From Vagococcus fluvialis bH819 (lineage in GTDB: Bacteria > Bacillota > Bacilli > Lactobacillales > Vagococcaceae): a DNA stretch of 60,952 nt. Location: contig NZ_FWFD01000014.1 of the NCBI RefSeq assembly GCF_900163795.1, positions 1 to 60,952 of the forward strand, in the 5' to 3' direction. Shown one piece after another: positions 1,879-55,574 of the stretch (position 1 is the stretch's first letter; each line of letters opens with the position of its first letter). A program made the translations under genes and the position numbers. The notes under the pieces are model-generated. The model was not told the DNA's origin and made no database searches. It saw nothing but the letters and a program-made list of their open reading frames with translations.

Positions 1879-1981
1879 TAAAAAAGCCTCTAGCTAAAAA
1901 ACTAGAGGTAAAAAGGAGTTGTTTATTTACTTTGGAGGAGTAAATAAAATGAAAAAATTTATTGTTAGGGTTGTTTTGTAA
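1879..1981 (-). ncRNA. Candidate small RNA, copy 1 of a three-copy family (CCUCC loop)
   Basis: Read on the minus strand: a promoter-like TTCACA...TATATA stretch near 2010-1988, a conserved unpaired 5' segment (ACAAAACAACCCTAAC), a hairpin with 10-bp arms TTTATTTACT/AGTAAATAAA (1922-1948) around the 7-nt loop CCTCCAA, a short ACTCCTTTTT linker, and an intrinsic terminator (CCTCTAG/CTAGAGG stem, six Ts at 1885-1880). The same parts recur at about 5350-5455 (-) and 37268-37368 (+). The ends are estimated from promoter and terminator positions. Confidence 0.55.
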
Positions 1982-2019
1982 GTATGCTATATATAATAGT
2001 CTTAAAGTGTGAATAAATT

Positions 2020-2319
2020 GCAATGAATCGTGTTTCTTTTCTGTGAAAGCCACATCAACAATATCTCAGTTGTTAAATCCAGATTGTCTTAAAATGCCTT
2101 CAAGCCTCATGCTTGCTTTTTTCATGATGTGATTAGAGCCTCACTGACATAACCATGATTCCAGAATTTTTCTCCAACCTTCTTGCTAACTTTCTTCTTC
2201 GGCTGCTTGATATTCTTTTGTCACGTCAATTGCGGCATGAGATGCCCAAGTTAAATATTTAGCGGTCGTTTCAGAGTTCGTCCAAGTATAAAGACTTCCT
2301 CGGCGTCGGCTACAGTCAT
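2020..2319 (-). pseudogene. Degenerate RimJ/RimL-type GNAT acetyltransferase
   Basis: On the minus strand, fragments of a GNAT acetyltransferase can be read in shifting frames. ATG 2319 gives MTVADAEEVF; after a frameshift comes SLYTWTNSETTAKYLTWASH; after a stop and a deletion, EKFWNHGYVSEAL, the acetyl-CoA region motif; then MKKASMRLEGILRQSGFNN followed by a stop, the usual C-terminal signature. In-frame stops and an internal deletion make it non-functional. The intact family is about 180 residues. It adds to the signs of decay in 2-5.3 kb. Confidence 0.75.
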
Positions 2320-2518: not shown

Positions 2519-2650
2519 CAATTATTAATCAATGAACTTAAAATTATTCTATAACTCTTAATATCAGAAACTCTAATTAATTTAATAACTCATAAAGCTA
2601 CTTACTATAATGGCTTTTATTTTAATCAATCAAATAATTGAAAAATGCAC

Positions 2651-2685
2651 ACATTTGTTGTACGATTAATGTGTAGAACAAATGT
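2651..2685. promoter_or_regulatory. Inverted repeat, probable autoregulatory operator of the toxin-antitoxin pair
   Basis: Perfect 9-bp arms ACATTTGTT (2651-2659) and AACAAATGT (2677-2685) lie 20 bp before the antitoxin start, over the likely core promoter (TTGAAA about 17 bp before TACGAT). This is the usual place for ribbon-helix-helix antitoxin binding. Inferred, not tested. Confidence 0.55.
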
Positions 2686-2704
2686 ATACAGGAGATGCAT
2701 ACGT

Positions 2705-2926
2705 ATGAGTACAGTAACATTTAGAGTAACAGACGATGAAAAATCATTTATTCAATCAATGGCTGATTTAAATGGTTTAAGTTTATCAGAACTAGCTAGA
2801 ACAAAATTACTAGAAAGTTTAGAAAATCAAATTGATATGGTTCTTTACGATAAAGCGATGAAAGCACACCAATTAAATGATGAAAGTGTTTCTCATCACG
2901 ATATGCTTAAAGAATTAGGTTTATGA
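2705..2926 (+). CDS. RelB-like / DUF6290 ribbon-helix-helix antitoxin
   Basis: 73 residues starting MSTVTFRVTDDEK. I chose ATG 2705 because GGAG stands 9 bases before it; an upstream in-frame ATG lies within the operator and has no ribosome-binding site. The N-terminal beta strand plus two helices (residues about 3-45) match the ribbon-helix-helix DNA-binding fold of type II antitoxins. The C-terminal part would wrap the toxin. The stop codon overlaps the toxin start (ATGA), the usual translational coupling. It would neutralise the RelE-like toxin encoded next and repress the operon through the inverted repeat upstream. Confidence 0.85.
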   Translation: MSTVTFRVTDDEKSFIQSMADLNGLSLSELARTKLLESLENQIDMVLYDKAMKAHQLNDESVSHHDMLKELGL

Positions 2927-3197
2927 GTAATAGAGGATATTCAGTTAGATATGAGAAAAATGCTCAAAAAGCATTAAAAAAATGGATAAACATCAAGCTA
3001 GACTAATTTTATCTTGGATTTCTAAGAATTTAGAAGGAAATGAATTTCCACGCAGTCACGGAAAAGGATTAGTAGGTAACCAAAGTGGACAATGGCGTTA
3101 CAGAATTGGTGATTATAGATTAATTGCTAACATTGATGATGAAACTATAACTATTTTGATTTTAGAGATAGGACATCGTCGAGACATCTACCAATAA
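2923..3197 (+). CDS. RelE/ParE-family toxin, split by a -1 shift at an A7 run
   Basis: Translation from ATG 2923, which overlaps the antitoxin stop, gives MSNRGYSVRYEKNAQKALKK, the normal RelE N-terminus. The frame then closes in the zero frame after a run of seven As (2976-2982). The rest of the toxin is in the -1 frame (from MDKHQARLILSW to the family ending GHRRDIYQ). In the zero frame the run reads TTA AAA AAA, a classic slippery heptamer A-AAA-AAA. The toxin is therefore either inactivated by a 1-nt deletion, made by programmed frameshifting, or translated only from ATG 2982 without its first strand and helix. RelE-type toxins cleave mRNA at the ribosome; ParE types poison gyrase. A terminator follows directly. 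Confidence 0.75.
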
Positions 3198-4439: not shown

Positions 4440-4667
4440 CTATTTATTATCTTTTTTATGAACATTGTTCAAATTAGGATTGTTTGGATTTTTATCCATG
4501 TAATTAGAATTATCTGTATCCTTAATTCCAATATTCGCTTTATTAATACCAACCATTCCTGTATTTACAATGGAATTTGAGCCTTTTAAAGGGTCTTTTC
4601 CTTTTGCACGCAACTTATCATTTTTGATACGGATTTTTTCTGATTTCAAAAGCTTTTTTTCTGACAT
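4440..4667 (-). CDS. Small hydrophilic protein of unknown function (75 aa)
   Basis: The start is preceded by a strong GGGGGAA ribosome-binding site, which supports translation. The product is highly charged in its first 25 residues (Lys/Glu/Arg-rich, helix-forming) and Asn/Asp/Lys-rich and probably disordered after that, with no signal peptide and no membrane segment. I do not recognise a family. It lies among gene remnants. Confidence 0.5.
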   Translation of the reverse strand: MSEKKLLKSEKIRIKNDKLRAKGKDPLKGSNSIVNTGMVGINKANIGIKDTDNSNYMDKNPNNPNLNNVHKKDNK

Positions 4668-4719
4668 AAAAATTCCCCCATTGCTTTTTATTTATTGTAC
4701 CATATGACAAAAATAAACT

Positions 4720-5349: not shown

Positions 5350-5455
5350 AAAAAAAAGCCTCTAGCACGATACTAGAGGCAAAAAAGGAGTTGTTTATTT
5401 ACTTTGGAGGAGTAAATAAAATGAAAAAGTTTATTTGTTAGGGTTGTTTTGTTGG
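5350..5455 (-). ncRNA. Candidate small RNA, copy 2 of the three-copy family
   Basis: Same order of parts as copy 1: TTCACA...TATAAA promoter-like stretch (near 5485-5460), 5' segment ACCAACAAAACAACCCTAAC, hairpin TTTATTTACT/AGTAAATAAA (5394-5420) with loop CCTCCAA, ACTCCTTTTTT linker, and a terminator with the stem GCCTCTAG/CTAGAGGC followed by about eight Ts (5357-5350 on the minus strand). It carries a small insertion relative to copy 3 between the 5' segment and the hairpin, so the unpaired region varies while the hairpin is identical. Confidence 0.55.
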
Positions 5456-5666
5456 TATATTTATATATTAGTCTTAAAATGTGAAGTTTGTTTGAATGAG
5501 GTAATGATTATTTATGAAAAAATAGTTAATAATAAATGAAAGCTGTTTTAACTATTAGTTATCAGGTCATCAGAAAATAATATTGTGTCTACATTTAAAG
5601 AATAGTAAAGTGAACTTTAAATACGTACATCTATAAATAATGAAATAATTTATTGGAGGAAATGAA

Positions 5667-37047: not shown

Positions 37048-37267
37048 GCTGCATTTATTTTATATAGTAGAATCAAATTAAAATATAGTAACTAGAGAAT
37101 AGTTGGTATAAAAATAGTTATTAAAAAAATAAAAAAATCTAGAAGACTCAATGAAATATCATCGGATACCGAATTTTGGGATATTTACTATTTCTTAAAT
37201 AACTCTTCATAAAAAAGCAACAAATCAGGTATTAATTCTTCACAGTCACGCAGTATTATATAAGCAT

Positions 37268-37368
37268 ACCAACAAAACAACCCTAACAAACTTTTTCATT
37301 TTATTTACTCCTCCAAAGTAAATAAACAACTCCTTTTTAGTCCTTAGCGAAAGCTAGGGATTTTTTTT
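37268..37368 (+). ncRNA. Candidate small RNA, copy 3 of the three-copy family
   Basis: Plus strand: promoter-like TTCACA (37239-37244) and TATAAG (37259-37264), 5' segment ACCAACAAAACAACCCTAAC, hairpin TTTATTTACT/AGTAAATAAA (37300-37326) with loop CCTCCAA, ACTCCTTTTT linker, and a terminator with stem TCCTTAGC/GCTAGGGA (one G-T and one mismatch) and eight Ts (37361-37368). The terminator stem differs from copies 1 and 2 while the hairpin arms and loop are identical, which is what selection on RNA structure predicts. It lies between the zinc-ribbon gene and the LacI regulator. Confidence 0.6.
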
Positions 37369-54303: not shown

Positions 54304-54310
54304 AGCAATG

Positions 54311-54383
54311 TTGCAGGATTCCCGATAGGATTTACGTGTGATATGTAAATATTCCTTGTAACCGACAAAACAAAGGGGGAATA
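54311..54383 (+). promoter_or_regulatory. SMK box (SAM-III riboswitch) of metK
   Basis: The characteristic blocks are present in order: GGATTCCCGATAGGAT, a variable arm ATTTACGTG/TATGTAAAT, CCTTGTAACCGA, and GGGGGAAT. In this class, found in Lactobacillales metK leaders, binding of S-adenosylmethionine pairs the Shine-Dalgarno (GGGGGAA here) with the upstream TTCCC segment and shuts off translation. Confidence 0.92.
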
Positions 54384-54386
54384 AAA

Positions 54387-55574
54387 ATGTTAGAAAGAAA
54401 ATTATTTACATCAGAATCAGTCTCAGCAGGTCATCCCGATAAGATCGCCGATCAAATCAGTGATGCCATACTAGATGCGATTCTAGCAAAAGATCCTTAT
54501 GCTCGTGTGGCATGTGAAACATCTGTTACGACAGGTTTAGTTCTTGTCTTTGGTGAAATCACAACAACAGCCTATGTGGATATTCAAAAAGTGGTTCGTG
54601 AAACGATTAAAGGTATCGGTTATACTCGTGCCAAATATGGTTTTGATGGAGACACATGTGCCGTGATGGTAGCAATTGATGAACAATCACCCGATATTGC
54701 TCAAGGAGTGGATGCTTCTTTAGAAAAAAGAGAAGGCAGTCACGACCAAGAAGATTTAGGAGCAGGAGATCAAGGCTTGATGTTTGGTTATGCCAATAAC
54801 GAAACACCAGAGTTAATGCCATTACCGATTGCGCTAAGTCATCGTATTATGAAAAAATTAGGTGAACTTAGAATCAATGAAACACTGAACTACTTAAGAC
54901 CAGATGCTAAATCACAGGTAACAGTCGAGTACGATGAAGCAGGAAAACCTGCTCGAGTAGATACTATAGTAGTTAGTACACAACATGATGAACACGTTAC
55001 ATTAGAAACAATTGTTGAAGATGTAAAACGTTTGGTTATAGCAGAAGTTATACCAAGCACACTTATAGACGAAGAAACAAAATATTTCATTAATCCAACA
55101 GGTCGATTTGTCATTGGTGGTCCTCAAGGGGACTCTGGTTTAACAGGTCGTAAGATTATTGTTGATACATATGGTGGTTATGCAAGGCATGGAGGCGGAG
55201 CTTTCTCAGGAAAAGATGCAACCAAAGTCGATCGTTCAGCAAGTTATGCTGCGCGCTACATTGCCAAAAATATTGTAGCAGCAAAATTAGCAGATAAGTG
55301 TGAAGTACAGTTAGCATATGCTATCGGTGTCGCACAACCTGTTTCAATTTCTGTTGAAACGTTTGGAACAAGTGCAGTGGCAGAATCAGCTTTAATCGAA
55401 GCGATTCGTGAAAACTTTGACTTGTCTCCAGTAGGAATTATTGAGATGCTTGATTTGAGACGTCCGATTTATCAAAAAACAGCTGCTTATGGTCACTTTG
55501 GTCGGGAAGATGCTGATTTTACATGGGAAAAATTAGATAAAGTCTCAGCATTAAAAACAAGTTTAGGTATGTAA
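54387..55574 (+). CDS. metK: S-adenosylmethionine synthetase
   Basis: 395 residues. Motifs: [24 protein letters not shown] at the start, [12 protein letters not shown] and [19 protein letters not shown]-type loop ([27 protein letters not shown]). It makes SAM from methionine and ATP, and its translation is controlled by the SMK box just upstream. Terminator directly after. Confidence 0.98.

Follow-up and report, generated by a model that had tools for sequence, protein, structure and literature searches.

A multicopy small RNA family of Vagococcus and other Lactobacillales with an OmpR-type promoter repeat and a predicted anti-initiation-region segment

Introduction

To our knowledge, few trans-acting small RNAs (sRNAs) of enterococci and lactobacilli have been assigned a regulator or a mechanism. 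Published accounts describe enterococci as lacking Hfq, CsrA and ProQ (PMC7724050) and lactobacilli as lacking Hfq (PMC3091779). In the window (the whole 60,952-nt stretch of Vagococcus fluvialis bH819 DNA that was analysed), three short loci carry the same hairpin with a C-rich loop. Are they RNA genes, pieces of a mobile repeat or leaders of neighboring genes, and, if RNA genes, what would switch them on and what would they act on? An earlier sequence-only reading took them for a three-copy family of sRNAs.

Results

Three loci with a common fold

The loci lie where the sequence-only reading had put them, with covariance model R1 bounding a full-length copy at 37268-37367 on the plus strand (the 37-kb copy) and two copies on the minus strand, at 1880-1983 (the 1.9-kb copy) and 5352-5456 (the 5.4-kb copy). 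The hairpin core TTTACTCCTCCAAAGTAAA matches three times in the window without a mismatch; 100 shuffles averaged 0.06 matches even with up to three mismatches allowed. Folding of all three copies predicted the 10-bp hairpin with its 7-nt loop and the intrinsic terminator that had been described, with stability z-scores of -4.3, -5.6 and -6.6 that were equalled by none of 200 shuffles. The ACTCCTTTTT linker and the differing terminator stems were likewise present. In the 37-kb copy the first hairpin (10-bp arms and loop CCTCCAA) occupies 37300-37326 (+), the linker CAACTCCTTTTT, a second anti-Shine-Dalgarno (anti-SD) stretch, 37327-37338 (+), and the intrinsic terminator, a stem that varies among copies and a T-run, 37339-37368 (+).

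The same loci might instead be terminated leaders (attenuators) of downstream genes, or small coding genes, rather than free sRNAs. A LacI-family regulator gene begins about 95 nt downstream of the 37-kb copy and a 63-aa GTG frame (1862-2053) spans the 1.9-kb copy, as this would have it. However, the 600 nt that follow the 1.9-kb and 5.4-kb copies on the same strand contain no ORF of at least 60 aa, no frame of that length lies over the 37-kb or 5.4-kb copy, and a terminator closes each copy. We consider such leaders or coding genes very improbable. Near the 1.9-kb copy, a DUF6290/NikA-like protein followed by a ParE-family toxin ORF is encoded at 2645-3197 (+), likely a toxin-antitoxin pair.

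A gene family rather than a mobile repeat

The count of three copies proved too low. The core pattern has 13 places in the V. fluvialis genome (2.95 Mb in 22 contigs), of which 11 are exact, one has a single mismatch and one has two; the reversed pattern has none. Mean pairwise identity among these copies was 0.96 in the 5' segment, 0.93 in the pre-hairpin segment, 0.98 in the hairpin and 0.75 in the linker. It was 0.34 in the terminator and 0.28-0.32 outside the promoter and RNA, where random sequence of the same composition gives 0.30 (upstream windows were taken from 11 copies and all others from 13).

The terminator 5' arms took 95 distinct forms among 116 copies, a set that excludes copies without a recognised leader or terminator, and in 32 aligned copies of the genus compensatory changes were found in all nine terminator pairs. 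The covariation score was 0.367 versus 0.146 in shuffles, was reached by none of 500, and was lost on sliding the partners. Covariation of these stems was one of the tests that the sequence-only reading had set for itself. Hairpin 1 was 99.4% paired in the same 32 copies with five of its ten pairs invariant, so that covariation cannot prove its structure, for which conservation and a few G-U changes are the evidence.

Because the terminator stems differ among copies yet still pair, we read the loci as an RNA gene family and not as a transposon; they are almost certainly RNA genes. Non-functional dispersed repeats or mobile-element parts would account for the many copies, for their presence on two small contigs and on V. 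fluvialis plasmids, and for tandem arrays in some genomes. This explanation, which had been named in advance as one that could overturn the family, is exceedingly unlikely: the flanks beyond promoter and RNA share no sequence, identity there falling to about 0.30, terminators are replaced but remain paired, and the copies are conserved across families. The present data refute an IS or MITE, and carriage of copies as plasmid cargo remains.

Two small contigs, 7.7 and 6.6 kb long, open with a copy (L001, G000:C2:1-1557, and L012, G000:C19:1-1557) and begin at the leader of the sRNA, and the repeat seems to break assemblies. Copies are found on three V. fluvialis plasmids, for example at 4590-4692 of NZ_CP122525.1 (L505); among streptococcal csRNAs, csRNA9 is also plasmid borne. 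Tandem arrays of three to four sRNA genes occur at G007:C1:1472423-1473079, G008:C1:815191-815599, G012:C1:1694757-1695360 and G013:C18:154-1090, with a spacing of about 195-213 bp where it is regular.

Distribution in Lactobacillales

A covariance-model search, one of the checks that the sequence-only reading had asked for, found the family far beyond the window. With at most two mismatches the core was present in 31 of the 60 genomes searched: all 14 of the genus (own genome included), 12 of 15 others of the family, and five genomes of other families, among whose matches L016 and L018 look like chance. Model R1 at E<=0.01 matched 81 of 198 Lactobacillales genomes in 27 of 54 genera and gave 2-13 copies per genome within the genus. 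At the lax cut-off of E<=0.1 it matched 39 of 39 genomes of presumed Enterococcaceae, which is an upper bound since two matches (L489 and L490) are not this sRNA. Of the 30 loci listed from these genomes, the 28 that remain without those two divide, as judged by eye, into 19 with the window-type leader and nine resembling the Rfam family Ref84.

Named genomes contain at least 113 stretches with the core. The 80 matches listed include Vagococcus, Trichococcus, Isobaculum, Desemzia, Secundilactobacillus, Lacticaseibacillus, Loigolactobacillus, Levilactobacillus, Agrilactobacillus and Enterococcus nangangensis, and most of the named-genome loci, read by eye, carry an upstream repeat and a second CUCC stretch. 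Loci L186, L192 and L198 do not and are chance-like core matches. A match titled as an Enterococcus 'phage' lies on an unverified contig that may be host DNA and allows no inference on phages.

Several Lactobacillaceae-type loci (L107, L117, L152, L155 and L200 among them) have extra hairpin-like 5' sequence before the core and a second CUUACUCC-type motif further on, both read by eye; these look like an enlarged variant with several anti-SD segments. A Trichococcus-type copy stands under a clostridial genus name (L118, record titled Sedimentibacter sp. SX930), for which contamination or misnaming seems likelier than transfer.

A direct repeat upstream of the -10 box

The 'TTCACA...TATA' promoter of the sequence-only reading is present, but a better description is a direct repeat, TTCAYA-N5-TTCAYA-N9-TATTAT, of which a copy may show one half or the two. 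The 5.4-kb copy shows the two clearly (TTCAAA-N5-TTCACA-N9-TAATAT, 5465-5496, minus strand) and scores 26.9 with the position weight matrix (PWM) of the element. The 1.9-kb copy has a weak distal half (ATTGCA-N5-TTCACA-N9-TATTAT, 1993-2024, minus strand; PWM 19.4), and this half is nearly lost in the 37-kb copy (degenerate half-site 37228-37233, TTCACA 37239-37244, N9, TATTAT 37254-37259, plus strand; PWM 12.1). Nine of the ten own copies listed score 14 or more, and the 37-kb copy is the weakest of the ten.

The TTCAYA repeat scored at least 10 in 159 of 207 distinct upstream regions when the spacer was 5 nt, versus 15-117 regions at ten other spacers (regions shorter than 110 nt, duplicates and cores outside the pattern were left out of the 207). 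The 182 better regions gave a 32-nt logo, [TG]TCAYA-N5-TTCAYA-N9-TATTAT, the 25 low scorers having been omitted from the PWM; scored back, 176 of the 207 reach 14, which is circular in that most served to build the matrix. Activators of the OmpR family characteristically use repeats with an 11-bp period just 5' of the -10 box, and the direct repeat here, nine bases before that box, is typical of an OmpR-type response regulator. Note that in the own genome, at one mismatch or less, the repeat alone has 125 places versus 125 for the reversed pattern; there is no excess, and a single site therefore carries no weight as evidence. Linkage to a -10 box gives a pattern with no more than modest enrichment.

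PieR as the predicted activator

Among 17 OmpR-family regulator genes of the genome, one has an upstream PWM match of at least 14 (14.1; the next best is 3.7); an eighteenth and weakest PF00486 match (L333) was excluded as not an OmpR-type regulator. The best NCBIfam match of this gene is PieR and that of the neighboring kinase is PieS, both below the strict cut-offs. The upstream site of pieR itself scores 8.2 with an independent PWM. Autoregulation was rejected as a conserved trait: of 26 pieR loci, just 5 have the repeat upstream, and every one of these comes from closely related Vagococcus.

The strongest conserved site outside the sRNA loci precedes an FtsX-like ABC permease/ATPase operon behind ltaS. 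The exact -10-linked site is found there in 8 of 14 Vagococcus genomes, a context checked by tblastn in four genomes and from the first codons in three more, G006 not being among them. In three genomes of other genera (G015, G030 and G038) the element, scoring 26.6, 13.3 and 18.4, precedes the same kind of ABC operon between ltaS and pieSR. Genome G035, likewise from another genus, has the element (PWM 19.3; 18.7 with an independent PWM) in a divergent ABC promoter, in the gene order pieS-pieR / ABC permease-ABC ATPase-alaS. Its PrsA is closest to PDB 5htf 'PrsA 1', and from gene order and the PrsA match G035 would be Listeria-like. With a PWM made from 73 non-Vagococcus sRNA promoters, five of these ABC promoters score 15.5-26.8.

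In Listeria monocytogenes the ABC genes lmo1505/1506 presumably adjoin pieRS. These genes are PieRS-regulated there, and PieRS of Listeria controls secretion chaperones and an ABC transporter (PMC12234432). An operator shared with this documented target, the Lmo1505/1506 operon, is seen as a motif in one genome, G035. The G035 and ltaS-type operons may be analogous rather than the same, because tblastn between the G035 ABC proteins and the ltaS-type ABC proteins gave no match in either direction. Examples of the ltaS-linked operon are L521 2403-3766 (+) and L527 3948-5161 (-); its FtsX-like permease is paired with an ABC ATPase of only 166-181 aa that looks degenerate and that recurs in several genera.

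Thresholds of 12, 14 and 19 were all tried on pieR neighborhoods of 8.5 kb, and significance was obtained at 12 only. At that value, 6 of 20 neighborhoods versus 0 of 20 control stretches from the same genomes had a match (Fisher p 0.010), two of the six (12.6 and 12.0) at no identified promoter; at 14 the counts were 3 of 20 versus 0 of 20 (p 0.12). Best scores also differed between neighborhoods and controls (Mann-Whitney p 0.017). Upstream of the G015 pieR, a site scoring 16.1 (L410, minus strand, position 131) is followed directly by a hairpin and a T-run, perhaps another short RNA near pieRS.

These data suggest that the PieR orthologue is the activator of the sRNA promoters, a prediction that we consider somewhat more likely right than wrong. 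The same sRNA family and pairing could be served by another OmpR-type activator, such as an orthologue of LisR/EtaR, CroR or PhoP. The element shows the protein class only, and pieR autoregulation is not conserved. The promoters of prsA, a known PieRS target in Listeria (PMC12234432), lack the element: the best PWM score was 11.2 and none of 24 rotamase loci reached 14 (23 of 29 genomes; the frame of L421 was misplaced, which leaves 23 informative loci). Moreover, Listeria LhrC depends on LisR (PMC4132741). Against this, only pieR among the 17 OmpR-family genes has an upstream match of 14 or more, and the LisR-responsive element at lhrC5 lies around -55 to -75 (PMC4132741), unlike the sRNA repeat, whose end is at most some 40 nt from where transcription presumably starts. 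We regard another OmpR-type activator as unlikely, at perhaps the level of a minority option. Two named candidates were set aside. PhoP had been suggested by the direct repeat, but pst promoters carry TTTACA-type half-sites (the Vagococcus ones read by eye); the published CroR motif TTTATTAA does not fit the repeat (PMC9426447). Three genomes (G032, G035 and G036) have a PieR match and no sRNA match, so PieR does not imply the sRNA.

A segment complementary to translation initiation regions

The sequence-only reading was right about Shine-Dalgarno complementarity but understated it, as the match extends from the SD across the spacer into the AUG. Read as its reverse complement, the conserved segment CAUUUUAUUUACUCCUCC spells out an entire initiation region exactly, GGAGGAG-UAAAUAAA-AUG, in which the spacing is normal. 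In the 37-kb copy it is CATTTTATTTACTCCTCC at 37297-37314 (+), the reverse complement of GGAGGAG-TAAATAAA-ATG, and the corresponding segments lie at 1934-1951 (-) and 5406-5423 (-) in the 1.9-kb and 5.4-kb copies. Folding places the CAU just outside hairpin 1 in the window copies, and the linker CAACUCCUUUUU is a second anti-SD stretch.

Among 207 distinct copies, which come from several families, 171 have a CAT at 4-9 nt ahead of CTCC; these are not independent, given common ancestry, although the CAT-CTCC distance varies while both motifs are kept. In controls in which the 20 nt before CTCC were shuffled, CAT fell 4-10 nt before CTCC in 0.152. Some of 12 other copies shown without CAT carry CAA, which is anti-UUG and would fit a UUG start. 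Pairing of the sRNA with initiation regions is, on this complementarity, quite probable.

The pattern GGAGGAGTAAAN{0,7}ATG has 108 places in the 14 Vagococcus genomes versus two for the reversed pattern. Ninety-four are the antisense strands of the sRNAs themselves, and the 14 that lie outside sRNA loci are candidate targets only. In two of them the match covers the full 18 nt; one precedes a lipoprotein-like gene (L519) and the other a gene resembling those of zinc-ribbon membrane proteins (L518). Among the other 12, four genes look like membrane, secreted or lipoproteins (L507, L508, L513 and L517), and the L514 place opens only 11 codons; these labels were given by eye from translations and are not counted as evidence.

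Action on a protein or the ribosome has also to be weighed: the RNAs could mimic an anti-SD and so mark or titrate initiation regions in general, or they could be a sponge for an RNA-binding protein that recognises the leader, ACCAAC...AACCCUAAC, which is nearly invariant. Many mRNAs could pair with a segment that is a near-generic anti-SD and anti-AUG, and the 5' leader is conserved like the hairpin (0.96). However, the genus keeps a fixed sequence that exceeds an anti-SD in length (CAUUUUAUUUACUCCUCC), and mRNAs are the presumed or demonstrated targets of csRNAs and LhrC, whose layout is the same (PMC3091779, PMC4132741). Both variants, taken together, seem improbable beside pairing with mRNAs.

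Relation to known sRNA families

For the 37-kb copy the best Rfam match was Ref84 (RF02846; 32.2 bits, E 0.0094 in a 171-base search). The gathering score of 52 was not reached by the ten of 13 own copies listed (30.8-40.1 bits) or by any of the nine repeat-promoter Enterococcaceae loci given (of 19), whereas all seven Ref84-like loci given (of nine) reached it. The upstream PWM score was 21 or more in 16 of the 19 window-leader loci and above 0 in none of the nine Ref84-like loci. Ref84 has the ACCAAC leader, a CAU-UUUACUC hairpin, the CUCCUUUU linker and a terminator in the same order as the window sRNA. In contrast, the Ref84-like loci have other loops and lack the TTCAYA repeat (0 of 9), an absence that is a feature seen here and outside the Rfam definition. 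Two Vagococcus loci, L104 and L148, combine Ref84 scores above the cut-off (78.1 and 68.4) with the CTCCTCCAG loop, which suggests that the window sRNA and Ref84 share descent.

E. faecalis sRNA_109 and E. faecium sRNA_093, predicted from dRNA-seq, were called similar to Ref84; the accessible text of that report describes no target, regulator or order-wide family for Ref84 (PMC7724050). E. faecalis sRNA_112 and E. faecium sRNA_005 are conserved over their first 50 nt, and lipoproteins and ABC transporters are among their predicted targets (PMC7724050); this pair may correspond to the enterococcal form with the repeat promoter, as in L504.

The csRNAs of the streptococcal CiaRH system are likewise multicopy RNAs of a stem-loop and a terminator with an anti-SD and anti-start segment, and their promoters likewise have an OmpR-type direct repeat with a 5-nt spacer 9-10 nt before the -10 box. 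The csRNA segment has CAU in 53 of 61 cases and anti-GUG or anti-UUG in the rest, the CiaR promoters read NTTAAG-N5-TTTAAG with 10 nt to the -10 box, and CiaRH is reported from streptococci only (PMC3091779). An anti-SD with an anti-start codon is present in the 171 of 207 copies here, but the half-site is TTCAYA rather than TTTAAG, unlike a CiaR promoter, and the RNA sequence also differs. R1 had no match in the five listed genomes of presumed Streptococcaceae.

The comparison with LhrC made in the sequence-only reading is apt as one of function (multicopy, C-rich loop, ribosome site blocked). LhrC (RF00616, clan CL00114) shares with the family multiple copies, the C-rich loop, an AAC-rich leader, a terminator and, in an alignment of an Enterococcus-type copy, an AAACUCC(C)UUUUU linker, and it blocks the ribosome site and depends on a response regulator (PMC4132741). 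It differs in having UCCC where the window sRNA has CUCCUCC, and the LisR element lies further upstream. The LhrC gathering score of 110 was not reached, the best sub-threshold match being 20.1 bits (an Enterococcus repeat-type copy), and the Rfam list for the 37-kb copy has no LhrC and a single clan member, rli33, at 13 bits. RsaE, the other comparison offered, did not hold: RsaE/RoxS is absent from the E<=10 Rfam list for the window copy.

Judged by layout, the family probably works like csRNAs and LhrC and is a probable relative of Ref84. It falls outside csRNAs, LhrC and Ref84 as these are defined, and the best reading is a new family that belongs to neither the csRNAs nor LhrC. A literature search that covered mostly journals open without subscription found no published description of it. 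At gathering scores Rfam gave no sRNA-family match in the window or for the 15 named-genome loci given; its sole match in the window is a SAM-III (SMK box) riboswitch at 54306-54389 (+) of 64.6 bits, directly 5' of a 395-aa ORF (54387-55574).

Discussion

The conserved gene family described here, with its covarying structure and common promoter element, is read by us, at a probability of about two in three, as trans-acting multicopy sRNAs driven by PieR that pair with initiation regions to repress their targets. An OmpR-family regulator, most likely the Vagococcus PieR orthologue, would bind TTCAYA-N5-TTCAYA, the repeat standing in for a -35 box, and would turn on transcription of many copies together in Vagococcus. 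Each RNA of ~100 nt would present the anti-initiation-region segment CAU(N4-9)CUCC, some of it in the loop of hairpin 1, and the linker CAACUCCUUUUU would add a second anti-SD stretch. Pairing with the SD and start codon of a target mRNA would keep ribosomes off and shut off gene sets together.

A wider proposal, which we advance tentatively and at somewhat less than even odds, is that the family forms an order-wide RNA arm of PieRS in which up to a dozen sRNAs with identical cores mute envelope and secretory genes. If so, this arm would span Vagococcaceae, Enterococcaceae, Carnobacteriaceae and Lactobacillaceae, would be a non-streptococcal counterpart of the CiaR-csRNA circuit, and would share descent with Ref84 and perhaps LhrC, with copies travelling on plasmids. 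Beyond the PrsA chaperones the PieRS regulon has members of undetermined function (PMC12234432), and if the assignment to PieR is right, PieRS would be tied to post-transcriptional control. The family offers a readable promoter code, a pairing segment and a candidate two-component regulator, and would place Ref84, an orphan in Rfam, inside a larger group.

With 2-13 copies per genome, the genus is well suited to the question of why sibling sRNAs are retained in bacteria. Sibling sRNA-like genes with the same promoter element and other cores, missed by the core pattern, were seen at L122:5510 (-), L095:3732, L154:2382, L124:2135 and L185:788; the core is CTCCCCC in L122 and TTCTTCTTCATTTTTCTCCTCC in L095.
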